Source of the DNA: Candidatus Sungbacteria bacterium RIFCSPLOWO2_01_FULL_47_10 | Lineage (GTDB): Bacteria > Patescibacteriota > Minisyncoccia > Sungbacterales > GWA2-42-14 | DNA: 11,883 nt | Direction: 5' to 3' | Assembly (NCBI GenBank): GCA_001820675.1 | Contig: MHQO01000006.1 | Coordinates: forward strand, 1 to 11,883 | Shown here: positions 1 to 11,883 of the stretch, in pieces | Position numbering within the stretch: the first letter of the stretch is position 1 | How the letters are laid out: the number at the start of each line of letters is the position of its first letter | Notes under the pieces: model-generated | The model's input: the letters and a program-made list of their open reading frames with translations, nothing else | Told to the model about the DNA's origin: nothing | Databases searched by the model: none | Position numbers and translations under genes: made by a program

Positions 1-249
1 TTCATCGGTTGCGAGAATAATTTTATCCGCTTTGGCGGCCCACACTTTCAGTTTTTTAACCGTCGGCTGAGACTTTCGCGATATGACATAATTCGGCTCA
101 AAGTCGTTATTCACGTCAACGCCGAGTTTATATGACGGCAGATCGCGGATATGCCCATAGCTTGACTCAATTATAAAATCGTCCCCGAGGAATCGGGAAA
201 TTGTCTTTGCTTTCGTCGGACTTTCTACGATAACAAGACTTTTTGACAA
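1..249 (-). CDS. topA: DNA topoisomerase I, N-terminal part (cut by window edge)
   Basis: Type IA topoisomerase that relaxes negatively supercoiled DNA in the cytoplasm. Only the first 83 codons are in the window. They read as the start of the Toprim domain: residues 4-13 give [10 protein letters not shown], including the invariant Toprim glutamate (VESPTKAK), followed by [17 protein letters not shown] and FEPNYVI, and ending in ATDE just before the DxD metal motif. All of this is standard for TopA. There is no ATG in the frame. A TGA stop lies upstream at 286-288, and the TTG at 247-249 gives [11 protein letters not shown], the normal distance to the first motif, so TTG is chosen as start. 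No clear Shine-Dalgarno sequence precedes it. It follows dprA on the same strand after 107 bases, a common bacterial neighbourhood. A cluster of inverted repeats fills that gap and may control it. Confidence 0.93.
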
Positions 250-260
250 AACAATGTGAC

Positions 261-357
261 GCCAATCTACGAACCTAATGCCAATTCAACGAATTGTAAA
301 TAATGATATCGTACCCGCAATTCGTAGGTTGGCATAAAATTTGCATCGTATTGGCAT
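261..357. repeat. Four-copy repeat cluster between dprA and topA, two copies in each orientation
   Basis: The motif ATGCCAA-(1 to 4 bases)-ACGAA occurs four times. On the plus strand, 261-273 (GCCAATCTACGAA) and 278-296 (ATGCCAATTCAACGAATTG) are in one orientation. 318-335 (CAATTCGTAGGTTGGCAT) and 346-357 (TCGTATTGGCAT) are in the other. The copy at 318-335 can pair with 278-296 (8 bp plus 7 bp around a 3x4 internal loop) or with 261-273 (12 of 13 positions), so in RNA these would be mutually exclusive hairpins. As DNA they could be half-sites for a dimeric regulator. The cluster starts 12 bases upstream of the topA TTG and ends at the dprA stop, so control of topA is the natural guess. No known regulator site is recognised. 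Confidence 0.75.
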
Positions 358-1229
358 CATATTTTACTCCACTGGTCTGCGCCTGTTTTTTTCACCAATC
401 CTTTCAATTCTAACACAGTAAGCGCGGAAAGGATACCCGATGTTGAAAACTCGGTTTCGCCTTTAATCTCGTGGACGCTCCGCGGTTCGTCCGAAAGGAG
501 TGTTAAAATAATTTTTTCTTCGCGCCCGACGGCCTCATCGCGTTTTTCCGTTTCGAGATTTTTCATGACCGGTACGGAAAGTTCTTCTAAAATATCATCC
601 GCCGCCGTTACGGCCTTCGCTCCTTTTTTGATAAGCATGTGGGGTCCGCACGAATTCAGGGAAAAAATGGATCCTGGAACAGCGAACACTTCGCGGTTTT
701 GCTCAAGGGCGAGGCGCGCCGTAATGAGCGCGCCCGATTTTTCTTTTGCCTCGACAACAAGCGTTCCGAGCGAAAGTCCCGCGATAATTCTATTTCGTTC
801 CGGAAAATGATGCGGAAGGCCGGGGGCTCCTTCGGGATATTCCGATATGACCGCGCCGCCCGACGAGACGATTTTATCCGCGAGATTTTTATTCTGCGGC
901 GGAAATATCGAGCCATGATCAATTCCGCTTCCGAGGACCGCAATAGTTCGCAGGCCATTTTTGACCGCTTCGGAATGCGCGACCGTGTCGATGCCGGACG
1001 CAAGTCCGCTGACGATCGTGAGACGCGAAGACCGCGAAAGTCCCCGGATGATCTTTTCCGCCGTTTCTACTCCATAGCGGGTCGGTTTTCGCGTTCCGAC
1101 AATCGAAAGGCAGTGCTCTTCCTTTCGGAGTTCTCCTCTTACATATAATTGCCGGGGGCAGGAGGGAATTTCGGTAAGAAGGCGCGGAAAATTCTTATCT
1201 TTTTTCGAAAATATGGAAACGTCAGACAT
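357..1229 (-). CDS. dprA: DNA-processing protein DprA (Smf)
   Basis: DprA binds incoming single-stranded DNA during natural transformation and loads RecA on it. The 290-residue product has the Rossmann-like core at about residues 10-215: SIVGTRKPTRYG near 43-54, IVSGLASGIDTVAH, a LGSGID nucleotide-loop segment, FPERNRIIAGLS, SGALITA, EQNREVFAVPGS and GPHMLIKKGAKAV. All are hallmark DprA blocks. The last 70 residues (IILTLLSDEPRSVHEI... ILSALTVLELKGLVKK) match the winged-helix C-terminal domain. Length is at the short end of the family because the N-terminal SAM-type domain is absent, which is frequent. The ATG at 1227-1229 has no Shine-Dalgarno sequence, but a promoter lies right next to it, pointing to leaderless translation. 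It is transcribed away from moxR and toward topA. Confidence 0.96.
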   Translation of the reverse strand: MSDVSIFSKKDKNFPRLLTEIPSCPRQLYVRGELRKEEHCLSIVGTRKPTRYGVETAEKIIRGLSRSSRLTIVSGLASGIDTVAHSEAVKNGLRTIAVLGSGIDHGSIFPPQNKNLADKIVSSGGAVISEYPEGAPGLPHHFPERNRIIAGLSLGTLVVEAKEKSGALITARLALEQNREVFAVPGSIFSLNSCGPHMLIKKGAKAVTAADDILEELSVPVMKNLETEKRDEAVGREEKIILTLLSDEPRSVHEIKGETEFSTSGILSALTVLELKGLVKKTGADQWSKI

Positions 1230-1237
1230 TAATGAGC

Positions 1238-1266
1238 ACTATACGCGGCTCTTTTTATTTTTGCAA
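1238..1266 (-). promoter_or_regulatory. dprA promoter, probably giving a leaderless mRNA
   Basis: Reading the minus strand, TTGCAA (1266-1261), a 17-base spacer and TATAGT (1243-1238) make a good sigma-70-type promoter. The predicted start point about seven bases downstream (near 1231) is at or within two bases of the dprA ATG at 1229. That fits the missing Shine-Dalgarno sequence. This is motif reading by eye; no transcript data. Confidence 0.65.
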
Positions 1267-1273
1267 GCGAGGG

Positions 1274-1302
1274 TTGCGCGTTTCCGATTTTTGTGGTACA
1301 TA
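1274..1302 (+). promoter_or_regulatory. moxR operon promoter, divergent from the dprA promoter
   Basis: TTGCGC (1274-1279), a 17-base spacer and TACATA (1297-1302) form a plausible sigma-70-type promoter. Its -35 box lies only seven bases from the dprA -35 box on the other strand, so the two promoters are back to back. Transcription would start near 1309, leaving a leader of about 29 bases before the chosen moxR ATG. The match is moderate. Confidence 0.45.
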
Positions 1303-1337
1303 TCGGGCATGGTACGTTGACAACAAAAGGCCTGATC

Positions 1338-2555
1338 ATGCCGAAAATAACGGAAAAAAAGGATGTAACGAAATACCGTGCCATGGAGAGCGATTCTCGG
1401 CTCCACGAGCGCCACCGCAAGGTTTTGAAGCAGGTAAATGATATTCTCGAGGGTATTCGCCAGGTCGTGGTTGGCAACGCGCTTGAGCGCATTGCTTCAG
1501 CCGTCGTGGTTGGTCTTTTTTCTCTCGGCGACTCAAGCCCGGGATTCGTAAAAAAGATAAAAAAGCAGGTTCGGGGTGAAATCGTTATCGAACAAATTCG
1601 CGTCGAGCCGTCAAAGCTCGCAGGACACATTCTTTTGAAAGGTCCCCCGGGAGGAGGAAAAACTCTCATGGGCAAAACGCTTGCTTCTCTCACAGATTTG
1701 CTTTTCGGAAGAATTCAGATGACACCCGACAAAACGCCCCGTGATATTACGGTGCGCAGGGTGCAGGAAGGTGAAGAGGTATTTACATATTACGGCCCCA
1801 TCTTCAGCAACATTCTTCTTGCGGATGAGATCAATCGCGCGACTCCGAAGACGCAGTCAGCGCTTCTTGAGGCGATGAGCGAAGGGGCCGTGACGTATGA
1901 AGAGGCAGGCAATACGATTACGCGCCAGCTCGATAATCCGTTTCATGTAACGGGCACGCTGAATCCGGTCGAGAAGGGCGAGGGAACGTATAATCTTCCC
2001 GCGGCCCAGCTCGACAGGTTCATGTTTCAGATCCTTTTTGAACTTCCTGACGCGGAAACAATCGACGCGGTTCTCGAACTTACCGAAGCGCATGAAAAAA
2101 TGGTAATTGGGCCGGTTACGGATCTTGCGTCAGTTCTTGATGCGCGCGATTTCATCCGGAACGAAATTGAAGTTCCGAAAAACGTGAAGCGGTATATTCG
2201 CCGCCTGATTATGGCGACCTACGACCCATTCACGTTTAAGGAGATTTTTCCGGAATTGAAAGAGAAGCTCGGCGGACAGCCGCTTGTGCTTCTTCCGCCG
2301 AATTCCCGGGCGGCCATGCATTTGCAGAACGCCGCAAAGACGATCGCGTGTTTCAGCGGCGAGCGCGTGGTTGATTCATATCACGTCCAGAAGAGGTTTT
2401 TTGAAATCGTAAATCACCGGTTCATCCTGAATGACAACCTAAGACCACTCTACGATGAATTCGGGGGGCCAGAAGGATTTATTAAGGCGCTGATTACCGG
2501 AGATCGGGTGACCGGACGAAAAGGTCTTTTGCAGGTCGTTCCGGTAGACGAGTAG
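1338..2555 (+). CDS. MoxR-family AAA+ ATPase
   Basis: Cytosolic AAA+ ATPase of the MoxR family, chaperone-like proteins that work with DUF58 and vWA proteins. With the ATG at 1338 the product has 405 residues. Walker A is GPPGGGKT (about 102-109), Walker B LLADEINRA (about 160-168), then PKTQSALLEAM. Sensor 1 is TLNPVE with the following GTYNLPAAQLDRF, whose arginine is the likely finger. The C-terminal lid carries PPNSRA in place of the usual ASPRA. The start is chosen because AAAAGG (1325-1330) sits seven bases upstream; the open frame extends to a GTG at 1293 that overlaps the promoter. The segment between the first helix (VVVGNALERIASAVVVGLF) and Walker A is roughly 30-40 residues longer than usual and basic (KKIKKQVRGE). 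The DUF58 gene follows after four bases, so the two are cotranscribed. Confidence 0.93.
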   Translation: MPKITEKKDVTKYRAMESDSRLHERHRKVLKQVNDILEGIRQVVVGNALERIASAVVVGLFSLGDSSPGFVKKIKKQVRGEIVIEQIRVEPSKLAGHILLKGPPGGGKTLMGKTLASLTDLLFGRIQMTPDKTPRDITVRRVQEGEEVFTYYGPIFSNILLADEINRATPKTQSALLEAMSEGAVTYEEAGNTITRQLDNPFHVTGTLNPVEKGEGTYNLPAAQLDRFMFQILFELPDAETIDAVLELTEAHEKMVIGPVTDLASVLDARDFIRNEIEVPKNVKRYIRRLIMATYDPFTFKEIFPELKEKLGGQPLVLLPPNSRAAMHLQNAAKTIACFSGERVVDSYHVQKRFFEIVNHRFILNDNLRPLYDEFGGPEGFIKALITGDRVTGRKGLLQVVPVDE

Positions 2556-2559
2556 AACC

Positions 2560-3507
2560 ATGGTTCGACTTACGCCGGAAGAACTTTTGAAATTTGTGAG
2601 GGTTTTTTCCGTTTCTGACCCGGCATTCCGGGTATGGACGCTTACATTCGGCGAGCATAAGTCAAAACAAGTCGGCGAAGGGATTGAATTTAAAGAGTTC
2701 CGGCCGTATGAGCCGGGCGAAGATATCGTGAATTTGGATATTGATGCTTCGCTTCAGGAAGGCGAGCCGACGGTACGGGAAAATCTTTCCGAAGAGAAAG
2801 TGCGATATGCGGTCATTCTTGACGATTCGTGTTCTCTGCGGAGCTACGGCATGCGTGATGCAGCGCTTTTGTCGCTGGGCTGTTTCCTTGCATCAGCCGT
2901 GAAGGGAAAGGACTCGGCACAGGCGATTGTCATTCGGGGAGAGTCAAATGTTTTTGTCTCCCCGAAACTTTACAGCGTGGATGACGTTATGGCCCTGCTT
3001 CTCGAATTGCACCGCCTGCCGGTTGTGCGCGACCGGACACCGAGCACGCTTCATACCTGCTCGAGCATTTCGTCACGAACAATATCGCTGGCGAATACCC
3101 GCGTGCTTTTCATGTCGGATTTCTTTTTTGAAGATGTGCGGGCGGTGTATGACCGGCGGATTCGCGCGATGATCCTGGAAGGTCGCGATGTTTTATGGCG
3201 CGCTGTCGGCAGTACGTATGCGGGCGGTGTTGCGTCCACCGAGCTTAGGTTTTTGGGAATTTCACCGGACTGGGGCATGTTTGAAAATCTCCGGTCGCAC
3301 ATTCATTATCAAGATTCGGAAGATTCGTCGGTTGGCGTTACGCATTTTACGAGAAAAAAAGCTCGCGCCTTCGTACAGCGGCACCATGAGCGTGAAGCGC
3401 TTCTTGCGGCATCCGCGCGCTTGTGCGGTGTTCCAATGGCATGGGTGCATTCGACGACTCCGGAAAAAGTGATTCAGGATCTCAAAAAAGGATTTGTCAT
3501 TTTATAA
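2560..3507 (+). CDS. DUF58 family protein (MoxR partner)
   Basis: A 315-residue protein with the DUF58 signature at about residues 39-80: GEGIEFKEFRPYEPGEDIVNL, then DIDAS and VRENLSEE. The usual RxIDW is changed to VNLDID, so the tryptophan is missing. Residues 88-92 read DDSCS, a DxSxS arrangement like the vWA metal site, and VLFMSDFFFED resembles the later acidic strand. This agrees with the known vWA-like fold of this family. There is no signal peptide or membrane segment, so it should be cytosolic, unlike many DUF58 proteins that carry N-terminal helices. It starts four bases after the moxR stop with only a weak upstream ribosome site, so translation is probably coupled. In characterised systems such proteins are encoded beside MoxR and vWA proteins; the exact role here is inferred from context. 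Confidence 0.88.
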   Translation: MVRLTPEELLKFVRVFSVSDPAFRVWTLTFGEHKSKQVGEGIEFKEFRPYEPGEDIVNLDIDASLQEGEPTVRENLSEEKVRYAVILDDSCSLRSYGMRDAALLSLGCFLASAVKGKDSAQAIVIRGESNVFVSPKLYSVDDVMALLLELHRLPVVRDRTPSTLHTCSSISSRTISLANTRVLFMSDFFFEDVRAVYDRRIRAMILEGRDVLWRAVGSTYAGGVASTELRFLGISPDWGMFENLRSHIHYQDSEDSSVGVTHFTRKKARAFVQRHHEREALLAASARLCGVPMAWVHSTTPEKVIQDLKKGFVIL

Positions 3508-3532
3508 ATGTTCGTTATTGTATTCATGGTAT

Positions 3533-3556
3533 AGCCCGGTTTTCACCGGGCTTTTG
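3533..3556 (+). terminator. Rho-independent terminator after the moxR-DUF58 unit
   Basis: AGCCCGGT (3533-3540), loop TTTC, ACCGGGCT (3545-3552), then TTTG. This is a perfect 8-bp GC-rich stem with a short T-run, 26 bases after the DUF58 stop. It separates the first unit from the BatD-like unit. Confidence 0.85.
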
Positions 3557-3648
3557 AAATATATACAGAATCAGGCGGCCGCAAAACAAGGGTGTATTGC
3601 CCTGCGATTTCCCCTTCTCGAAACTCTCCGCAAACCCTCCGCGAACTA

Positions 3649-3676
3649 TTGACAAATTAAGAAAAAGAGTTACTTT
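3649..3676 (+). promoter_or_regulatory. Promoter of the BatD-like/vWA/TPR unit
   Basis: A perfect TTGACA (3649-3654) with TACTTT (3671-3676) at a 16-base spacing gives a start near 3683 and a leader of about 30 bases. A second TTGACA at 3689-3694 has no -10 partner and belongs to a leader motif shared with two other genes here. The stretch 3557-3648 between terminator and promoter holds nothing recognisable. Confidence 0.6.
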
Positions 3677-3714
3677 TAAGCAAGAACATTGACATAACAA
3701 ACGGAGTGACTGCT

Positions 3715-5427
3715 ATGAATGGTCGGGTGAGGGCGCTTCTGATTATCGCCCTTTTTGGTCTATGCACGGCTTTTTTCGGTATTGTACCCGTAGGCGCTCA
3801 AGACGATCTTGGTCCGTCGTCGGTTACAAAGCCTTCATGGAGATATTATGAAGGGCTTGATTTCCAGATCTGGGACAAGTCCGGTTCCCGCGTCATCTTA
3901 TCGCTTTATCCGAAAGCGATCGTCCTTATGACTCCGTATGCGGAGGGCCAGGAACCGTTTACCGCGTTTTTGGAGCGCATGAAGTTTACACCGGAACATG
4001 GAGTGAGCGTTTCCCGGCTGGATACGTTTTACGGAATATCGGAGGCGAACGCTCCGATCAAAAATGCGAGATTTTATGTGGTCACTTTTTCGGAGGCGCA
4101 GGGTGGCATTATCACGATTTTGAATAACGTCTTTGACGAAAAAAATATCGTGACCGATGTCTATCCGGTATTCGCGCTTGACGGAGATCTCGTGTTTCCC
4201 GCGGCTGTCTGGATAAAATCGAAGGCACTTTCCAGTTTTCAACAGGAACTCGTGACATACAGATTCAGCAAGGTCCACTATACGACTGCGTGGTCGCTAA
4301 ATAGTAGTCCTCCCGCAGGAGTGCCGAACGGCGCCCTGCTGTTGGTGCCCATGCTCCCGCGGCTTCGCGAAGAAGAGATGAATACGCTTCGATTGAGCCG
4401 ACTCTTTTCGGAAGATGTTCTTACCCAATGGGCATATCCCGACTTTATTTCCATCAGGCCGCTGGTTCGCGCATTCGCCGAGTCTTCGGGATTATCGGGC
4501 GTTCTCGGTGAGCGGCTCAAGGTTACCTACTCGGTCGTGTATGATCCGAAACGCGCAGTCGTCGATGTTGATGCTGTCAAAAATATTTCTCAGGAAGCAT
4601 TCCTGCCGAAAGATTTTTCCCCGGATCTTTTCCGTTCTGAAAACGTCTCGGTTGCCGCAAAAGAGGGACTGGTGACGTTTTCGACCGAAGTCAGGCTCTA
4701 TCGGCCCGGCGCATTTACGCTTTCTTCGCCCAAGCTTTTTTACGGAATAAAAGGAGCATCTTCGAACATCCCGCCCGTCCTTATTCCGTTTCCGGAAATT
4801 CGTATCGAGATAATGCCTCTTCTCTTGAAAAACAAGAGCGGCGAGCCGCTTGTTGCAGATATTTATGGATGGAAGCACATGCCTCCTCCGGCCGCTATTG
4901 CGCCGGAAGAGCCAAGGGAGACGGCATACCCGAAAACTGATATCCGTTTTTGGACCCGCACCGCCCTCGAACGCATACCGTCCGCGGCGACATATACAAA
5001 GAGAATCGGTATCGTATTCGTGTCGGTATCCGGCGCCTTGTTTCTGGGTTTTGTGTTTGTGAGCGTCGGCTCGTATGTGTCGCGCCAAAACGCGAGCACT
5101 CGAAAAGCGCTCAAAAACGACGCGCGCCGTCTGGTGCGCGCAATCGACCGGGGAATGACGGACGACGAAGCGTTTCGCGCATTCATGCGATCGCTTAAGG
5201 CCGATCTTCGTTCGGTCTTCGGGGTTGACGCGGGTGTTTCAGCCAAGCTCATTGCGGAGTCCGCGCCCGAACGACTTCGTCCGGCTATTTCCGGCGTTCT
5301 TGCCGAAGCGGCAGCGCTTTCTCCGGAAAAAATATCACGAAACGATGTTGTCAATATCCTGTCTGCCGTAAAAAGTCTGCGGCGCAAACAGTGGTTTGCA
5401 AAAAAAATTCCTTATTTTTTTGCGTAA
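3715..5427 (+). CDS. Secreted, membrane-anchored BatD-like protein
   Basis: Product of 570 residues. ATG 3715 is chosen over an in-frame GTG at 3706 because GGAG (3703-3706) lies eight bases before it. Residues 1-28 form a signal peptide (basic start, hydrophobic run, cleavage plausible after VGA). Residues about 30-425 are an extracytoplasmic, beta-rich region, including TYSVVYDPKRAVVDVDAV near 271-288. A single membrane helix lies at about 430-455 (IGIVFVSVSGALFLGFVFVS). The last 110 residues are a cytoplasmic helical domain with the pattern FRAFMRSLKADLRSVFGV ... LRPAISGVLAEAAALSPEKI ... VVNILSAVKSLRR. That pattern resembles the C-terminal region of BatD/DUF4381-type proteins. Topology and place before a BatA-like gene support a BatD-like role, but the ectodomain is not recognised by motif. 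Confidence 0.72.
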   Translation: MNGRVRALLIIALFGLCTAFFGIVPVGAQDDLGPSSVTKPSWRYYEGLDFQIWDKSGSRVILSLYPKAIVLMTPYAEGQEPFTAFLERMKFTPEHGVSVSRLDTFYGISEANAPIKNARFYVVTFSEAQGGIITILNNVFDEKNIVTDVYPVFALDGDLVFPAAVWIKSKALSSFQQELVTYRFSKVHYTTAWSLNSSPPAGVPNGALLLVPMLPRLREEEMNTLRLSRLFSEDVLTQWAYPDFISIRPLVRAFAESSGLSGVLGERLKVTYSVVYDPKRAVVDVDAVKNISQEAFLPKDFSPDLFRSENVSVAAKEGLVTFSTEVRLYRPGAFTLSSPKLFYGIKGASSNIPPVLIPFPEIRIEIMPLLLKNKSGEPLVADIYGWKHMPPPAAIAPEEPRETAYPKTDIRFWTRTALERIPSAATYTKRIGIVFVSVSGALFLGFVFVSVGSYVSRQNASTRKALKNDARRLVRAIDRGMTDDEAFRAFMRSLKADLRSVFGVDAGVSAKLIAESAPERLRPAISGVLAEAAALSPEKISRNDVVNILSAVKSLRRKQWFAKKIPYFFA

Positions 5428-5454
5428 CACTACCGGCCGAAAGGAGGGGCACCC

Positions 5455-6603
5455 ATGGGCGTTGCTGACATTGTTCGCGGCGTGTCTCGCCCGGATACGC
5501 CGTGGGCACTGGTTCTTATCCCGATTATCATTCTTCTCCTTCTTATGCGGAAGAAAAGATATTTTTCGATTCCATCGCGCCATGTGTTTGAGATCGAACG
5601 CATCTCGCGCGCGCGGAGGGCATTTCTCTTTGCCCTTCGCGCGCTTCCATCTTTACTTGTTGTTCTCGGCATAATCCTTGCGGTTCTCGCATTTGCGGGG
5701 CCTCAAAGCGTTGGAATGGTTTCGCGGGAAGTTGCGGTTGAAGGAAGGGTCATGGTGGTTATAAATGACGTTTCGGGAAGCATGGCCGGCAGTAACATGA
5801 CCGTTTTGCAATCCGCGAACAACGCCCTCCTAAAAGAGTTTTGTACAAAGGACGGAAACGAGGAATCTTCCGTTCTGGTCGGGTTGGTAACATTCGATGA
5901 CGAAGCTTCGGTCCGCGCGCACCTCTTTAAAGATTGCGGCGTGATTGAACGAAGAGTTTCGGCCCTTGAGACGGGAGGATCGACATCTATTGAACGGGGC
6001 TTGTGGGCAGGCATCCTGTTGATTCTCAATGGTGTTGACAGGGGAGATCTTGTGCCCGCAAAGGAACTCCTGGAAATACAGGCATCCCTTGCGGAGCGGT
6101 TTCCAAAATTTCCTTCCCGAAGAAAGGAGTTTTGCGGGAAATACCAGGGCTTATCGATTGCGCTCTTTACCGACGGTGACTTTCCGCACGTATTTAGGGA
6201 CAGGGACTCGGCTTTGGAAAATACCCAATTCAACAGAGCGTATGAAAACAACATAAACCCCTTTCACGTGATTGATATCGCGCATGCGCTTTGCATCAGG
6301 ACCTATTTTTGGAGCGTACAAGGAATTTTGCCTGCATATCGTGAGGCATTTACCACTCCTCCGGGAATGGGAGCGGCAACGGAGGTTGGCGGCATGTCGG
6401 GAGAGCGCCTTTCACTGCTCTATCGAAATGTTGCAAAAATCGAGCGGGGACGGCGAGTCATGAAACTTTTTGTTTCCCAAAATCCTCTCCGAAGACTCTA
6501 TATCACATGGGCGATTATTCTGGTTTCATCCGGAGCGTTCGCGTCCGTAATTCCGTATTGTGCGTCAATAACCGCCCACAGAGAGGAGGGAGACGAGCGA
6601 TGA
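5455..6603 (+). CDS. BatA-like membrane vWA-domain protein
   Basis: Membrane protein of 382 residues with the BatA layout: hydrophobic helices at about 17-31 and 59-81, an extracytoplasmic vWA domain at about 98-330, and a C-terminal helix at about 349-366. The vWA metal-ion (MIDAS) site is complete: DVSGS at 105-109, the threonine in GGSTSIE (177), and the aspartate in LFTDGD (240). It is therefore likely to bind a divalent cation and a protein ligand. The stretch between the second and third metal motifs (about 190-230, DRGDLVPAKELLEIQASL...) looks longer than usual. A strong ribosome site AAGGAGG (5441-5447) sits seven bases before the ATG. Its stop overlaps the start of the next gene by four bases (ATGA), so the two are translationally coupled. 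Confidence 0.9.
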   Translation: MGVADIVRGVSRPDTPWALVLIPIIILLLLMRKKRYFSIPSRHVFEIERISRARRAFLFALRALPSLLVVLGIILAVLAFAGPQSVGMVSREVAVEGRVMVVINDVSGSMAGSNMTVLQSANNALLKEFCTKDGNEESSVLVGLVTFDDEASVRAHLFKDCGVIERRVSALETGGSTSIERGLWAGILLILNGVDRGDLVPAKELLEIQASLAERFPKFPSRRKEFCGKYQGLSIALFTDGDFPHVFRDRDSALENTQFNRAYENNINPFHVIDIAHALCIRTYFWSVQGILPAYREAFTTPPGMGAATEVGGMSGERLSLLYRNVAKIERGRRVMKLFVSQNPLRRLYITWAIILVSSGAFASVIPYCASITAHREEGDER

Positions 6604-7349
6604 AAAAGTATTTCGCGGGCATTCTCGTGATCGCGTGTGTCGGTGCGTGGCTTTGGGTGCTCGGCTCTTTTGTCGAGGTGTGGAACCGCGAAGCCGAAAA
6701 TACGTTTGCCGCAAAAAAAGCGCATTATGTCCGGGAGGTTGAAAGGGCCGTGGGCGTTTCCCAAAAACTTGAAGAAATTGACCTGACTCTCGCGGAAAAC
6801 CGTTTGGCTGAAGCAGGGTCTCTTATTGAAGCGTTTGAAACGATTGCGCCCAAAGAACTTCTTCCGGATATTGAGTATCGAAGGTCGCGGCGTGCGTATC
6901 AGGCATGCACGGCGGGAATACGGGAGTTTATCTTCTTTGCGGGGGAACTTAGGGGGAACGAAATGGGGGCAAGCCGCGATGAGGCATCCAAGCACTGCGA
7001 GGACGCGGAACGCTTCCTGAAAAAAGCCGCATTTTCCAAATCCGACCCGAGAAGTTTTTACGCATTGTACGGCCTCGGCAATATTTCCGTGCGCAAGGCG
7101 ATGCTTGCGGCATCCCAGGATGCGCGAACGCAGGCGCCCCAACAAGCGCTTCGATCATATGTTGAAGCGCTTGAAGCGAAGAGCGATTATGAAACGCGGA
7201 TAAATCTTGAGTTGCTGCTTATGCTGAATTCAAAACTCGAATCGAATGATTCGGGAAAGAATTCACGGCCGCTTAATCCGAAAGATTTTAACCTAAAAAT
7301 TCCGATGCCCGGGGCATCGGCAGATCTTCCGTCAAAAGGAAGAATCTGA
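6600..7349 (+). CDS. BatC/TPR-like membrane-anchored protein
   Basis: A 249-residue protein with an N-terminal signal anchor (about residues 4-22, FAGILVIACVGAWLWVLGSF) and an otherwise soluble, helix-rich region. The middle is charged and coiled-coil-like (EVERAVGVSQKLEEIDLTLAE). The stretch ALYGLGNISVRKAML ... ALRSYVEALEAKSDYETRINLELLLML near 160-215 has the look of tetratricopeptide repeats. YETRINLELLL in particular resembles BatC-type proteins, where a TPR helix pair follows the vWA gene. The tail (PLNPKDFNLKIPMPGASADLPSKGRI) is proline-rich and probably unstructured. AGGAGGG (6584-6590) precedes the ATG, which overlaps the previous stop. It is the last gene of its unit. The family call rests on short motifs and context. 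Confidence 0.7.
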   Translation: MKKYFAGILVIACVGAWLWVLGSFVEVWNREAENTFAAKKAHYVREVERAVGVSQKLEEIDLTLAENRLAEAGSLIEAFETIAPKELLPDIEYRRSRRAYQACTAGIREFIFFAGELRGNEMGASRDEASKHCEDAERFLKKAAFSKSDPRSFYALYGLGNISVRKAMLAASQDARTQAPQQALRSYVEALEAKSDYETRINLELLLMLNSKLESNDSGKNSRPLNPKDFNLKIPMPGASADLPSKGRI

Positions 7350-7380
7350 TCTCCAAAATCAGTTTTGGGGCAAAACATAT

Positions 7381-7416
7381 TCCCGCACGCGCATGATCGC
7401 ACTGCGGGATTTTTTA
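7381..7416 (+). terminator. Rho-independent terminator after the BatD/BatA/TPR-like unit
   Basis: TCCCGCA (7381-7387) pairs with TGCGGGA (7403-7409), followed by six Ts. The 15-base loop contains a further GCG/CGC pairing around CATGAT. A second small hairpin, CCAAAA-TCAG-TTTTGG (7353-7368), lies between it and the gene's stop. Confidence 0.85.
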
Positions 7417-7421
7417 TTTAT

Positions 7422-7441
7422 CCGCGTGATACCGCGTGATA
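7422..7441. repeat. Tandem 10-bp repeat upstream of the second vWA gene
   Basis: CCGCGTGATA occurs twice back to back (7422-7431 and 7432-7441), followed by CCGG. It ends six bases before the -35 box of the next promoter, a position where an activator could bind. With only two copies it may equally be a chance duplication. Confidence 0.6.
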
Positions 7442-7447
7442 CCGGAC

Positions 7448-7476
7448 TTGACATACGCTTCTTTTTTTTGTACTGC
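7448..7476 (+). promoter_or_regulatory. Promoter of the BatB-like vWA gene
   Basis: TTGACA (7448-7453) is perfect. At 17 bases the -10 would be TACTGC (7471-7476), a weak match; GATATA a little further on (7480-7485) is too far for normal spacing. The preceding terminator and the good -35 box support a separate transcription start for this gene. Confidence 0.5.
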
Positions 7477-7510
7477 TGGGATATACCATTTCGGGCAAGG
7501 AGGATTATAT

Positions 7511-8641
7511 ATGACCGGCCCGGAGGCGGTCTTTGATATCGGATATAGGATCTTGCTTTATTTCTTTGGCATCGACGAAATATATGTCCGTTTTCCCGAG
7601 TCGCTTCGTTTTGCATGGATCATTCCTGTTCTTTTCGCCGTAACAGCAATCCATATTGTATGGAAACGGAGCATTGTCCGCGGTCTCGGCATGCGGCTTG
7701 CGACCATCCGCGCATTTTTTGCCCTCCTGGGAGTTTTAGTCGGGATTGCATTTCTTATCGTTACCCTTTCCGAGCCATACGGAATTTCCGACGTGAAGCG
7801 GCCAATTTACAAAGGAGAAGCGGTTGATTTCGGGTTTGATATTTCTGAAAGTAGCGGCGCTCGGGATGTTTCGCCGGAGCGGCTTGAGGCCGCAAAGCGC
7901 GATGTGAAAAAAGCAGTTCCAAAGCTTCAAGCGGCCGGTATTTCATATTTTTGCCTTAATTATTTTACCGTTGCGCCAAACCGGCTGCTTGAGTGTACGA
8001 CCGATACCGCCGGATTTCTCCTGACGCTTCAAACGCTTGACCGCGCGTTTGCCGCACGAAACTCGACAAATCTTCTTGCGGCTTTCAAAGAACACGTGTC
8101 GGTTCTGAAAAACTATATTCCGGAGGGAACTCGCATCACCAAGGTCATTATTACCGATGGAGGAAAAGAAGCCTGGCGGCAAAAAGACGGAAGCATTGTC
8201 GTGGTTGAGGACGCCTGGAGCTTGGACGATTTGCAAAAAGAAGTAACGCGCATGACGCAAGAAGAAAAGATTCGCGTTATTCCCGTCGGTTTGGGTGGGG
8301 AAAAATGGGTCATGGTGCCGACCGGGGGATCCGACAATGGCGTTGTTGAGACGGAAGACGGGAGTCCGGTTCTTACGAAACTTGATGCGGAAACGATTAA
8401 AAAGATCGCCCTTTGGGCGGGAGACGCAAGGCGATATTTCATTCTTGACGGCAGGGCTGATTTTGGCGAGTGGCTGGCTTCGCTGATGTCGCGAGAAATG
8501 ATTGTTGAACGCTATATCGTCGAGAAAAGCGCGCCGTATGAATTGTGGAGATGGCCGCTCGGCGCGGGAATTTTCTTTCTTATGATTTCTTTTGGGGCAC
8601 TCGGTATTTTTGAAAGGATAACGGCAAAATTCTTAAAATAG
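7511..8641 (+). CDS. BatB-like membrane vWA-domain protein
   Basis: Product of 376 residues. The open frame runs upstream to 7436, but AAGGAGGA (7499-7506) immediately before ATG 7511 fixes the start. Hydrophobic helices lie at about 33-50 and 68-86, with a C-terminal helix at about 348-364. The domain between is vWA-like with a complete metal site: DISES at 110-114, the threonine in ARNSTNLL (186), and the aspartate in IITDGG (216). It is followed by a KIRVIPVGLGG strand typical of the fold. The membrane/vWA/membrane layout matches BatA/BatB proteins, so it is probably the second vWA subunit of the system encoded upstream. It has its own promoter and terminator. Sequence resemblance to the vWA protein at 5455-6603 is low outside the metal motifs, so it does not look like a recent duplicate. 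Confidence 0.85.
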   Translation: MTGPEAVFDIGYRILLYFFGIDEIYVRFPESLRFAWIIPVLFAVTAIHIVWKRSIVRGLGMRLATIRAFFALLGVLVGIAFLIVTLSEPYGISDVKRPIYKGEAVDFGFDISESSGARDVSPERLEAAKRDVKKAVPKLQAAGISYFCLNYFTVAPNRLLECTTDTAGFLLTLQTLDRAFAARNSTNLLAAFKEHVSVLKNYIPEGTRITKVIITDGGKEAWRQKDGSIVVVEDAWSLDDLQKEVTRMTQEEKIRVIPVGLGGEKWVMVPTGGSDNGVVETEDGSPVLTKLDAETIKKIALWAGDARRYFILDGRADFGEWLASLMSREMIVERYIVEKSAPYELWRWPLGAGIFFLMISFGALGIFERITAKFLK

Positions 8642-8656
8642 ATTAAAACCGGATAC

Positions 8657-8685
8657 AGCCGTTTCATTATAGAGGCGGCTTTTTT
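8657..8685 (+). terminator. Rho-independent terminator after the BatB-like gene
   Basis: AGCCGTTTC (8657-8665) pairs with GAGGCGGCT (8672-8680) as a 9-bp stem with two G-U pairs and a six-base loop, followed by six Ts. It starts 15 bases after the stop codon. Confidence 0.85.
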
Positions 8686-8738
8686 ATTGTTCGTCCGCAA
8701 TTCATCCCGAGCGTGCGCGGGGCATGATGTACGGAGTA

Positions 8739-8767
8739 TTGACATATTTTGCCTAATTTGCTACGAA
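8739..8767 (+). promoter_or_regulatory. Promoter of the S41 protease gene and its structured leader
   Basis: TTGACA (8739-8744), a 17-base spacer and TACGAA (8762-8767, followed by T) form a good sigma-70-type promoter. The start point would be near 8774, about 210 bases before the chosen start codon, so a long leader is transcribed. Confidence 0.65.
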
Positions 8768-8773
8768 TGAACC

Positions 8774-8952
8774 AATCTGGAAAGAGAAGGGCAAGGCTTG
8801 GCCGATTCCGCGCATGCGGCGCTTCGGCCGTCCGTCGACTCTACTCCTAAGATTCGCTATTTGCTATGGCCAATTCCGCAACAGATGGAATTTGGGCAGG
8901 CAAAGTGCGGTCTTTGGCACGGAGAACGGTCAGGAAGCAGTGCCCTTTTTTG
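8774..8952 (+). ncRNA. Structured leader or small RNA of about 178 nt ending in a U-tract
   Basis: The transcript from the promoter above can close on itself. AGAGAAGGGCA (8783-8793) pairs with TGCCCTTTTTT (8941-8951) over 11 bp (two G-U). The stem continues with GCTT/AAGC (8796-8799 with 8935-8938) and GGCC/GGTC (8800-8803 with 8928-8931). Inside are CCAATTCC/GGAATTTGG (8870-8877 with 8887-8895, one bulge) and CAAAG/CTTTG (8901-8905 with 8912-8916). An alternative hairpin, GGCCGA/TCGGCC (8800-8805 with 8824-8829) around CCGC-GCAT-GCGG, competes for 8800-8803. The last T-run could terminate transcription just before the ribosome site at 8971-8976, so this may be an attenuator or riboswitch-like leader, or a stand-alone RNA of 6S-like size. 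It matches no family I recognise; folding is by eye. Confidence 0.45.
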
Positions 8953-8983
8953 CTACTTTGACAACAAAAAAAGGAGAGAAGAA

Positions 8984-10933
8984 ATGAAATCGAAAACCGG
9001 ACTTATTGCTGTTATTCTTATGGCAATGTGCGTTATGGTCGGCTTTTCGCCTGTTTTGGCGGCGGACTATCTGGCTGATTTCCGGGATTCCTCGACAGTC
9101 ACTGATCCCAATGCAACACCATCACTTCTTCCTGCGGCGGCACAAGATTCGATCACGGCTTCGCAGAGACAAATCGATGTTTCGGTGCTGATGCCGGATG
9201 GTACTACTGCCAATTATCAGGGGAACGGTTTTGTTGTTCATGAGGACGGGTGGATTGTTTCAACGACCGGCTTCTTGAATGGCGTGAATATCTTAGCGCA
9301 CCCGGACGACATCTTGTTTCAGACATCTCCTATATATCCGCTCGGCTTCTTCGAAGAGAGCGGTCTTGCGGTTTTTAAGGCGATGGATGTTCCGGAAGAT
9401 CGAGCGTTGTTTACGGCAATGAAGCAGGGATTCGTGCGAAAAGTCGAATTTGCTGCGGAGACAAGTTCTGGAGCGACGGTATATGCGCATCGTGACGGGT
9501 ATTCCGTTCGTGGCACCTCGGCGTTTATCTATACTAAGACGCCATTTCGGGCGCATGTCCTTGGTGTCGTGTCGAAACTTGACATCCGATTCGGGGAACC
9601 CGAAGGAAAATACATCCTGATTGACCGGCAGATTCCCTCGTTCCTTATTGGGGCAATGGTGGTTGACGAGCGTGGAAGGGTCGTCGGAATGGCGTATGCC
9701 AATGACGGCGAATACGGCATGCTGCTCAGCGCACAGACGATTCAGGAGAAATTCGGGGAGTTCCTTGTTTCATATGTGAATTATACCGCTGCCGGCGGCA
9801 TCACGCTTGAGGAGAAATTCGGGATTGGGCGACAGAAGAATTTGATTGACGAAATAACCGTGCTCATTGCCGTAAATGCGCTTGAGCGGCCGAAAAATCT
9901 TGCGCGTTGCGTAACCGAAATGCTTGTGATGACGCGTTCGGGGGAGTGCCGCGACCGGTTTTCCCATTATGAGCCGCGTGTCGTGGCGGAAGCCATGGGA
10001 GAAGATATCCGGGGAGAATTAGGCGGAGTCGGCATGGAGCTTACCATGCGCGACGGCTATGTGACGGTTGTAGCGCTAATCGACGGAACACCCGCCTCGC
10101 GTGCTAATGTGAAGGCCGGCGATGTGATTTCTGCCGTAAACGGCGTCGATGTTCGCGATGTGAAGACGGCGGTTAAACTGATTCGCGGCGCGCCCGGGAC
10201 GGAGGTCGAGGTTACGATTCTTCGGAAGGGCGCGAAAGTCCCCATGAAAGTAAAACTTATCCGCGAAAAAATCACGGTACAGTCGGTCCGCGCCGCTACG
10301 ACGCCCGACGTTCCGCCAATCGGCATCCTTACGACGACTGTTTTCAACGAAAATACTCCCGAATTGTTCGGGGCGGAACTGCAAAAATTCGTCGACCAAG
10401 GGATTAATCGGGTGGCGCTTGATTTTCGGAATGATCCGGGAGGCCTGCTTAATTCGGCGTTTCGGATGCTTGCCTATTTTATGAAGCCGGACGACACGGC
10501 GATTGTTATGAAGGAGCGGTCCCAAGAAACCGTATATGATGTTAACCGCTTGGTGAAAGAAAAAAAGATTAAGAAAGAGAATGTCGGCGCGTTTCGCAAC
10601 TTGAAAGTTGTTATTCTTGTCAACGAGGGAAGCGCTTCGGCGTCTGAAATTTTTTCCGGCACAATGAAAGATTATGGATATACCGTTGTCGGGAAACCGA
10701 CGTTTCAAAAAGGCGTCGGCCAGAGTGTCTTCCCGTTATCCGACGGATCCACCCTTTCTCTTACGACATTCGAATTTCTCGTCGGCAATAACCACGTTGT
10801 GATCCGTGACAAAGGCGTAACCCCGACCGTTATTGTTGAAAATCCCGAAGACAAGTCAAAGGATCTTCAGCTTGAGGAAGCGCTTCGGATTCTCAAGGGC
10901 ACGGATGTGTCGCCATCTTCGATAAACTTCTGA
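8984..10933 (+). CDS. Secreted S41 (CtpA-type) protease with N-terminal degenerate trypsin-like domain and PDZ
   Basis: Product of 649 residues. ATG 8984 is chosen because AAGGAG (8971-8976) is seven bases upstream and a signal peptide follows at once (residues 1-27, MKSKTGLIAVILMAMCVMVG, cleavage plausible after VLA). The frame is open back to a TTG at 8798, read here as leader. Residues about 62-262 resemble an HtrA/S1 trypsin domain (GNGFVVHEDGWIVS, LIDRQI, GAMVVDERGRVVGMAYA), but His, Asp and Ser positions are all replaced. Residues about 345-425 are a PDZ domain (GELGGVGMEL, ASRANVKAGDVISAVNGVDV). Residues about 440-640 are the S41 domain with the catalytic serine in EGSASASE (about 550) and lysine in TFQKG (576), so it should cleave C-terminal protein segments outside the membrane. 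Cys309 and Cys322 may form a disulfide. Its own promoter, leader and terminator make it a single-gene unit. Confidence 0.9.
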   Translation: MKSKTGLIAVILMAMCVMVGFSPVLAADYLADFRDSSTVTDPNATPSLLPAAAQDSITASQRQIDVSVLMPDGTTANYQGNGFVVHEDGWIVSTTGFLNGVNILAHPDDILFQTSPIYPLGFFEESGLAVFKAMDVPEDRALFTAMKQGFVRKVEFAAETSSGATVYAHRDGYSVRGTSAFIYTKTPFRAHVLGVVSKLDIRFGEPEGKYILIDRQIPSFLIGAMVVDERGRVVGMAYANDGEYGMLLSAQTIQEKFGEFLVSYVNYTAAGGITLEEKFGIGRQKNLIDEITVLIAVNALERPKNLARCVTEMLVMTRSGECRDRFSHYEPRVVAEAMGEDIRGELGGVGMELTMRDGYVTVVALIDGTPASRANVKAGDVISAVNGVDVRDVKTAVKLIRGAPGTEVEVTILRKGAKVPMKVKLIREKITVQSVRAATTPDVPPIGILTTTVFNENTPELFGAELQKFVDQGINRVALDFRNDPGGLLNSAFRMLAYFMKPDDTAIVMKERSQETVYDVNRLVKEKKIKKENVGAFRNLKVVILVNEGSASASEIFSGTMKDYGYTVVGKPTFQKGVGQSVFPLSDGSTLSLTTFEFLVGNNHVVIRDKGVTPTVIVENPEDKSKDLQLEEALRILKGTDVSPSSINF

Positions 10934-10947
10934 TTTTTTTTGTTTTG

Positions 10948-10975
10948 AGCCGCTCGTGTTCGAGCGGCTTTTGTT
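10948..10975 (+). terminator. Rho-independent terminator after the S41 protease gene
   Basis: AGCCGCTCG (10948-10956), loop TGTT, CGAGCGGCT (10961-10969), then TTTGTTTT. The stem is a perfect 9 bp. On the minus strand the hairpin is followed by an A-rich tract, so it should not serve the convergent mfd gene. Confidence 0.88.
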
Positions 10976-11008
10976 TTGCCGGGCGCCTGCCGGTATCGGC
11001 AAGAAGTC

Positions 11009-11883
11009 TTACGACCCGGAATTCTCTCCGTCCTTTTTGCTTTTCAATTCCTCCACCGCATCCGCAAGGATTTGGCAATACAGATTCAGTCCGACGCGAT
11101 TGATGGCGCCCGACTGTTCCCGCCCTAAAATATTTCCCGCGCCGCGCATCTCAAGATCGCGAAGGGCGATTTCATATCCCGATCCGAGTTCTTCGAATTC
11201 CTTGAGCGCTACAAGCCGCTCCATCGCTCGATCGGTGACTGCGCGGGGGCGATACGCAAAATACGCGAATGCTTCGTTATCCCCCCTCCCGATCCGTCCG
11301 CGGATTTGGTGTGCCTGCGCAAGACCGAGCCGCGTTCCATCGTCCACGATCAGTGTATTTGCGTTTGAGAAATCAAGTCCGTTTTCAATAATGGTTGTCG
11401 CGAGAAGCACGCGTGTTTCTTTCCGCCTGAATCCATCCATGATGCGAATCATGGTTTTTTCATCCATTCGGCCGTGAATGATTTCAATACGGATTTTTTT
11501 GTTCTCAAGTCCCGACCTTCGATTATCAAAGGTCGGGACTTGAGAAAGGGCCCGGGATAATTTTTCTCGAACTTTTTCGATAGTCTCGATCCGATTATGT
11601 AAAAAATACACCTGCCCTTCGCGATCGAGTTCCCGCACTATCGCGCGGGCAAATGTTTTATATGAATGGGGCAGAATAAATGTTTTAATCGGAAGCCGTC
11701 CGGGAGGGGGCGTGGAAATTACCGAAAGGTCGCGCAATTTCGAAAGCGCTAAGTTAAGCGTCCGGGGGATCGGGGTTGCGGACAAGCTCAAAATGTCGCA
11801 GGATGCCCGGAGGTCTTTAAATTTTTCTTTCTGCTTCACGCCGAATTTCTGTTCTTCGTCCACGATAACAAGTCCGAGATTCT
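11009..11883 (-). CDS. mfd: Transcription-repair coupling factor Mfd, C-terminal part (cut by window edge)
   Basis: Mfd is the ATP-driven DNA translocase that removes stalled RNA polymerase and recruits UvrA. The window holds its last 290 residues. The helicase DEEQ box is at visible residues 8-11 (the frame continues past the edge), then GVKQKEKFK, LSATPIPRTLNLALSKLRDLSVI, QVYFLHNRIETI, IIHGRM, ATTIIENGLDFSNANTLIVDD, QIRGRIGR and LRDLEMRGAGNILGREQSGAI. The RDLSVISTPP segment and the GAGNILGREQSG motif separate it from RecG. The protein stops at TAA (11009-11011) only about 18 residues after LYCQILADAVEELK, so the usual C-terminal D7 domain of well over 100 residues is missing. Only 75 bases separate the stop from the convergent protease gene, leaving no room for it. 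A 45-bp palindrome is inserted in frame at 11502-11546. Confidence 0.95.
   Translation of the reverse strand, partial: NLGLVIVDEEQKFGVKQKEKFKDLRASCDILSLSATPIPRTLNLALSKLRDLSVISTPPPGRLPIKTFILPHSYKTFARAIVRELDREGQVYFLHNRIETIEKVREKLSRALSQVPTFDNRRSGLENKKIRIEIIHGRMDEKTMIRIMDGFRRKETRVLLATTIIENGLDFSNANTLIVDDGTRLGLAQAHQIRGRIGRGDNEAFAYFAYRPRAVTDRAMERLVALKEFEELGSGYEIALRDLEMRGAGNILGREQSGAINRVGLNLYCQILADAVEELKSKKDGENSGS
11502..11546. repeat. Perfect 45-bp palindromic element inserted in frame within mfd
   Basis: TTCTCAAGTCCCGACCTT (11502-11519) and AAGGTCGGGACTTGAGAA (11529-11546) are perfect 18-bp inverted arms around a nine-base loop. The 45 bases encode exactly 15 residues (SQVPTFDNRRSGLEN) of Mfd. Without them the local sequence becomes EKLSRALKKIRIEIIHGRM, the same length as the matching part of E. 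coli Mfd (ERLAELVPEARIAIGHGQM, from memory). This is what an in-frame insertion of a small palindromic mobile element would leave, comparable in style to the Rickettsia palindromic elements. No second copy is in the window. Confidence 0.85.

Follow-up and report, generated by a model that had tools for sequence, protein, structure and literature searches.

The window analysed here, an 11,883-nt stretch from the genome of a Candidatus Sungbacteria bacterium (G000; 1.10 Mb in 84 contigs, 87% complete), ends in an mfd gene on the minus strand, within which lies a 45-nt palindrome. The rest of the window (1-10933), judged by eye, presumably holds the start of topA, a dprA-like gene, a MoxR-type ATPase with DUF58/VWA-type genes and an S41-type protease. 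The features under study are the following:

11009..11881, minus strand: mfd, C-terminal helicase part, 290 codons in the window (Helicase_C, TIGR00580, Mfd structure sequences)
11502..11546, minus strand: REPIN-like palindromic element, 45 nt, translated as (S)QVPTFDNRRSGLE(N) (palindrome scan, RNA folding)
11502..11519, no strand: arm 1, 18 nt, with the family core AAGTCCCGACCTT at 11507-11519
11502..11506, no strand: outer 5 nt of arm 1, TTCTC, paired with GAGAA at 11542-11546 and varying from copy to copy
11520..11528, no strand: loop between the arms, 9 nt (palindrome scan)
11529..11546, no strand: arm 2, 18 nt, with the family core AAGGTCGGGACTT at 11529-11541

A palindrome within the mfd reading frame

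The best NCBIfam model for the open reading frame is mfd (TIGR00580, 393.6 bits over residues 1-286), with a score below the 800-bit full-length cut-off because the window holds only 290 residues of the protein; upstream of the window the frame continues into two N stretches, and an intact full-length gene is therefore putative. A palindrome scan recovered the structure given in the preliminary description, namely perfect 18-nt arms and a 9-nt loop at 11502-11546, and, with one mismatch allowed, extended it to 22-nt arms around 1 nt, while the minus-strand frame runs through it without a stop. The strong mRNA hairpin claimed in the same description is borne out by a predicted RNA fold of -37.6 kcal/mol for the region (z = -7.4, 200 shuffles). 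Scanned for perfect arms of at least 12 nt and loops of at most 16 nt, 17 G000 stretches (191 kb), seven of which are the window and element-holding stretches, contain 20 perfect palindromes as opposed to 0.5 in shuffled sequence; 12 of these structures, some of them surely terminators, lie in the 10 other stretches (153 kb), which were not chosen for elements.

Aligned to the sequences of solved structures, by which the insertion sites in both Mfd and NadE were placed, the window protein is exactly 15 residues longer, net, than E. coli and M. smegmatis Mfd, in gaps of 3 and 12. The proposal that removing the palindrome restores canonical spacing to the residue therefore holds against these two proteins but not against short-loop genomes of the same family, where the net gain is about 10-12 because the Mfd loop itself varies in length. 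It had also been considered that close relatives might share the 15 residues, and there they are absent: the loop is short in four of five other same-family genomes and carries a different palindrome in the fifth, G004. Unrelated palindromes likewise occupy the Mfd loop of other relatives, including a perfect 44-nt one in G015 and others in G016 and G014. Three in-frame palindromes, all different and representing at least two families (TTGGAAACTnAGTTTCCAA, GAGGCTWAGCCTC), occur in the mfd gene of G015 (L187 15021-17246).

Dispersed copies and their residence in genes

The preliminary description took the palindrome for a dispersed element, and other copies are indeed present in G000, on contigs C9, C33 (two), C82 (half copy) and C61 (variant). 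Four exact occurrences of the paired 13-nt core AAGTCCCGACCTT...AAGGTCGGGACTT were found: in mfd (C6), directly upstream of a MutT-like gene (C9), in frame in nadE (C33, ...PELL KSRPSRQRSGLESGG PSQK...) and after a nicotinamidase-like gene (C33); the variant copy follows a histidine-kinase-like gene, this and the MutT- and nicotinamidase-like genes being named by eye. The outer pairing differs among copies (TTTC/GAAA on C9, TTTCC/GGAAA on C33). NadE of G000 is recognised over residues 46-553 (699.8 bits, NCBIfam) and is 10 residues longer, net, than the glutamine-dependent NadE chains in the PDB. The half copy on C82 (near 6019, L011) adjoins an N gap, which would fit a tendency of hairpins to interrupt assembly, and the copy number for G000 may be too low an estimate.

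A covariance model built from seven copies gave matches at E ≤ 0.1 in 15 of 51 genomes, chiefly G000, the same-family G004, and G038. The in-frame hosts in G004 are a Mur ligase, a YmdB-like protein, a serine hydrolase, a Sua5/YrdC protein, a glycosyltransferase and a TPR protein, the last named from its likely orthologue. In two TPR proteins that look orthologous, the linker joining the membrane segment to the TPR domain carries a tandem pair of elements, in frame (L055 3536-3630 in G038, L015 1473-1560 in G004).

To follow the family further, a degenerate pattern, CAAGDYCCGRCCTTN{3,14}AAGGYCGGRHCTT, was run over the genomes of 84,980 species; it matched 86 stretches, 80 of which were returned as loci, among them some of the G004 and G038 copies already described. 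By record title, 70 of the 80 belong to Patescibacteria-type groups, eight are titled bacterium or uncultured bacterium, and one each comes from a Sutterella bin (L076) and an Omnitrophota bin (L114); the latter two could reflect transfer or mis-binned contigs, and the L114 element is in frame in a DinB-type polymerase. One Lloydbacteria genome supplies 17 of the 80 loci, and 173 exact arms were counted in that genome, with none for the reversed control in all 14 genomes of the same search. The family is patchily distributed, the exact arm pair of the window occurring in 2 of 383 genomes of the class and AAGGTCSGACCTT, the commonest arm, in 11 of 142 (reversed control, 2 of 142). An exact 21-mer search of species genomes gave no match, and none of the viral contigs searched held the window's exact arm pair.

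The arms covary strongly over the 80 loci (Fisher p 7e-14, with related loci not independent), under a pattern that let the two sides vary independently. Both sides carry the consensus in 58 copies; among the 22 off-consensus copies, 15 are changed on both sides and exactly complementary, three are changed on both sides and non-complementary, and four are changed on one side.

A stop-free reading frame of at least 150 residues passes through the element at 56 of the 80 loci and is absent from the other 24. Pfam was run on 50 of these 56 frames, and the remaining six were taken as orthologues (three GatA, confirmed by alignment, and one each of GatB, UvrB and TopA). Pfam domains were matched in 38 of the 50 and in none of the other 12. 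At 29 of the 38 loci the element falls within a domain or in the stretch separating two domains of one frame, and at nine it lies at a domain edge, where some (for example L115) may precede the true start. The hosts named by Pfam include GatA, GatB, UvrA, UvrB, UvrC, IF-2, AtpD, KsgA, PheS, PheT, MnmA, MiaA, TsaD, MurC, RNase R, DinB, transketolase and YchF, and the commonest arms are free of stop codons in every frame. Other in-frame palindromes in G015 lie between two domains of a class II tRNA synthetase (L185 2745-2778) and between DNA_pol_B_thumb and PHP domains (L184 118-152).

The GatA alignment shows the element at one loop in 4 of 31 rows, and a quick tree with nine open forks needs three changes, at least two of them forced. 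In the sister species L072/L223 the two 13-nt arms are identical at 26 of 26 positions, whereas 94 of 214 four-fold sites elsewhere are the same; the four GatA copies were first found by a pattern favouring intact arms, and a search for decayed copies by protein search of 60 relatives, with 30 loci aligned, showed none. The net gain in GatA is about 5-7 residues; since this and the 10-residue gain in NadE are smaller than the element, some native loop must have been lost or been different. At the GatA loop between DSTSLP and IGVPR, L227, L234, L242 and L246 hold other palindromes (TGTCAAAAGTCAGACTTTTGACA, AAAGGCGGCCTTT) or short tandem repeats. Several unrelated palindrome families thus behave alike, a point that goes beyond the preliminary description.

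Transposase genes, flanking sequence and the origin of the elements

Of the 17 element-bearing genomes searched, 14 have genes matching PF01797 (Y1_Tnp), as do 25 of 38 relatives. The profile search returned none for G000 (87% complete), G015 or G038, three genomes that nonetheless carry elements, and the enzyme would there have been lost, left unassembled or never have been resident. We then compared the flanks of transposase genes, counting as an edge palindrome any odd palindrome with arms of at least 9 nt around one centre base. In a first set of 30 Y1 loci, in a few of which the chosen frame may not be the Y1 gene, an edge palindrome occurs at 18, missing at 12, and on both sides at eight, all eight with matching cores. 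A second set comprised 24 RAYT-like frames from 29 loci (two without a HuH frame and three short being set aside) under a narrower, strand-aware window rule; here 15 have an edge palindrome, nine do not, and eight of the ten with palindromes on both sides match. The corresponding figures for control GatA and Mfd loci are 4 of 59 for any edge (p 1e-7 against the first set, 2e-7 against the second) and 0 of 59 for both sides (p 8e-5 and 2e-5 for matching pairs). The edge test was devised after a first look at transposase flanks, the second set being a fresh sample, and some edge palindromes may be terminators.

The sequences of the edge palindromes vary between transposase genes, and the elements of G386 and G383 match transposase flanks of their own genome. 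A 21-mer, CAGCAAGGTCSGACCTTGCTG, found at one of the 12 Y1 genes of G386, is present in all four G386 elements and in none of 76 others; similarly, a TAC/GTA extension marks 13 of 17 Lloydbacteria loci as opposed to 5 of 63 others. A second family, GAAGTCSGACTTC, with 14 exact arms in G000, flanks transposase genes in the same-family genomes G004 and G005 and was not found in G001-G003, which have Y1 genes. A copy in L069, of oral Moranbacteria, was considered as a transposase flank and rejected, as it sits in frame within that gene.

Palindromes also occur inside the transposase frames, 19-32 residues before the HuH motif, in 15 of 21 loci that were mostly picked for showing palindromes and include the same gene twice, so that the fraction is not a rate; in the unselected second set the count is 9 of 24 as opposed to 5 of 58 control frames (p 0.003). 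Among the RAYT-like genes with an edge-like palindrome in their own frame, at an almost constant distance from the HuH motif, are L259, L260, L274, L266, L296, L303, L304, L313, L315 and L326. Such a palindrome may serve self-regulation through an mRNA hairpin or act as a third recognition site. All eight transposases tested match only NF047646 (REP-associated tyrosine transposase), at 35-43 bits, below its 80-bit cut-off, and a PDB sequence search with one G005 transposase gave no match.

Among the matches listed for the arm search of 14 genomes, 22 close pairs were counted and all have inverted orientation (18 with centres C..G and four G..C), as do 17 of the 19 listed close pairs of the second family GAAGTCSGACTTC; the two direct pairs are both in G004 (L285 1501-1532, corresponding to G004:C2:24863-24894, and G004:C4:109538-109574). 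Outside the arms, complementarity continues outward over a mean run of 2.54 nt at the 80 loci as opposed to 0.80 in shuffled flanks (largest of 2000 shuffles, 1.16); it is copy-specific, is gone by position -9 and is limited to part of the copies, 49 of the 80 having a run of only 0 or 1. In 36 Lloydbacteria pairs the mean run reaches 5.9 nt as opposed to 2.9 (largest of 5000 shuffles, 3.8).

Taken together, these observations lead us to regard the mfd palindrome as probably a REPIN-like miniature mobile element, with a RAYT-like Y1 transposase as its most likely mobiliser, tolerated when translated in frame. The element would consist of two short palindromic units (REPs), inverted around a short spacer and folding as one hairpin, and it would be moved by a Y1 (HuH single-strand) transposase supplied now or formerly by genes that carry cognate palindromes at their own edges. 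With stop-free arms, a frame-fitting length and a landing site in what is probably a surface loop, a copy could be translated and tolerated, mfd presumably remaining functional, and gene-breaking copies would presumably be lost. The genomes sampled are without near-identical pairs differing in a copy, and the jump itself is something that we infer.

A conventional alternative, which we consider unlikely, is a classical MITE, mobilised by a DDE transposase through recognition of its terminal inverted repeats. The elements are short, dispersed and bounded by terminal inverted repeats, some copies are translated in frame, and the boundary shows more direct 4-nt repeats than expected (5 of 76 loci with full flanks as opposed to 0.6); but self-complementary flanks such as GTAC would give that excess, the flanks being inverted repeats, and no target-site duplication rises above chance at 5 nt or more. 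Indeed, among the 76 of 80 loci with full flanks, direct boundary repeats number 0 at 5 nt, 1 at 6 nt and 0 at 8 nt, and 6-mers shared within 14 nt of the boundary number 3 as opposed to 1.7 in shuffled sequence. Furthermore, the cognate repeats adjoin Y1/HuH genes, in a comparison that covers Y1 genes.

The same flanks bear on the notion that each palindrome was born in place by hairpin-templated (quasipalindrome) DNA synthesis, with no mobility. The locus-specific outer complementarity would follow from such synthesis, as would the unrelated palindromes at the same Mfd and GatA loops, and 19 of 36 Lloydbacteria copies reach runs of at least 7 nt where only 0.8 pre-existing sites are expected, a number that, together with the absence of empty ones from 282 kb, also disfavours ready-made palindromic targets. 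Birth in place nevertheless leaves unexplained why the same core arms recur at unrelated loci in many species, and we hold it to be improbable as a full account, while hairpin-templated synthesis may still extend the arms or keep them identical after insertion. For the mobile element that we favour, the matching flanks would then stem from copying of flanking sequence during or after insertion, by hairpin-templated repair or synthesis, or may instead reflect insertion into ordinary hairpin loops that were later lost.

Mitochondrial byp elements have been proposed as translational bypass signals, and a role at the RNA level, whether in bypass, in mRNA stability or in termination, would agree with the very stable predicted hairpin and with the position of most copies in 282 kb of Lloydbacteria sequence, which by eye fall outside long reading frames. 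Bypass would permit out-of-frame copies, however, whereas the in-gene copies keep the frame and lack stops, a regularity partly built in by their discovery through open frames. Split conserved genes, sought coarsely by eye at the 36 other loci (the 24 with short frames and the 12 without Pfam match), were not recognised at any; several of these elements lie at a locus end and are not judgeable, one (L084) is the in-frame Sua5 copy of G004, and 14 same-strand frame pairs in different frames resemble ordinary neighbouring genes. Rfam gave no match over 10900-11883 of the window, and we deem an RNA-level explanation very unlikely. An assembly artefact (fold-back chimera), to which the 84 contigs of this metagenome-assembled genome and the C82 copy abutting an N gap might point, is scarcely credible given that mfd homology runs through both sides of the palindrome in one frame and that the same design recurs in many other assemblies.

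Beyond the mobile element itself, we tentatively suggest, with confidence short of even, that Patescibacteria own a tag-less REP-RAYT class, characterised by transposase genes with a third, translated copy of their own palindrome at a nearly constant position, about 22 codons before the HuH motif, and by new copies in which a target flank (to about 8 nt) is made into an inverted repeat. If so, stop-free arms and the building of flanks would let elements colonise the surface loops of core enzymes, and hairpin insertion would continually supply these bacteria with new protein loops. Protein-coding palindromes are extended here to a large, mostly uncultured bacterial radiation, and they account for loops in core proteins, among them GatA, GatB, UvrB, Mur ligases and Mfd, whose oddity would otherwise puzzle annotation and structural work. 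Two questions thereby become open to testing: whether a single-strand transposase spreads translated palindromes as selfish DNA, and by what means a hairpin keeps its two arms matched in a gene under protein selection.

Comparison with known palindromic repeats

Rickettsia palindromic elements (RPEs), to which the preliminary description likened the mfd palindrome, are described in the available portions of two accounts as in frame in unrelated conserved genes and also between genes (PMC10969869, PMC2229807). The likeness stands as regards this way of residing in genes; membership in an RPE family is not supported, as judged by description (tag and length): the window element measures 45 bp and has no CGTC tag, whereas RPEs are given as 105-146 bp (PMC2229807) or about 150 bp, and RPE-4 and RPE-6 are counted as CGTC REPs in the part of PMC3733652 available. 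Moreover, those portions of the RPE descriptions name no mobiliser (PMC10969869, PMC2229807), whereas the Patescibacteria palindromes are tied to a specific kind of enzyme, RAYT-like transposases.

A closer resemblance is to REPINs, or REP doublets, and their RAYT transposases, as outlined in the accessible parts of PMC3116915, PMC2817692 and PMC8266576. Both systems have two inverted palindromic units forming one hairpin, dispersed copies (173 exact arms in one Lloydbacteria genome, four exact pairs in G000) and cognate units flanking Y1/HuH genes, here in relatives, at part of the Y1 genes, and not in G000. The Patescibacteria system differs in having no GTAG head, a GTAG or CTAC foot tag occurring in at most 3 of 80 loci at any edge and the CGTC tag being absent too, and in transposases that score below the curated RAYT cut-off. 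Its units are odd, self-complementary and 13-19 nt long, in an element of about 36-45 nt that is often translated in genes and has locus-specific inverted flanks, and in some of its transposase genes a cognate unit lies within the reading frame.

Intragenic REP dimers are already known: the available text of PMC3733652 describes them in reading frames, which they lengthen by 20-30 residues; many of the host genes serve DNA repair and some encode tRNA synthetases. Those dimers are tagged GTAG or CGTC, whereas the present ones are tag-less, mostly from Patescibacteria and about 12-16 residues long; the words candidate and OD1 are absent from the main text of that paper, as are Parcubacteria and Candidatus from the accessible main text of a HuH survey (PMC6006769). 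Among the matches listed from the open-licence PMC literature, no paper joins such elements with Patescibacteria, a weak negative. The TIR/TIRYT systems, tyrosine transposase genes with flanking repeats unrelated to GTAG REPs, some self-complementary and some dispersed as dimers (PMC3733652, in part), may be the nearest class for the Patescibacteria transposases; they are set beside ours by description only, and the same partial text describes no translated copies. Working like both REP-RAYT systems and RPEs and lacking their tags, the Patescibacteria system is best called a new variant.
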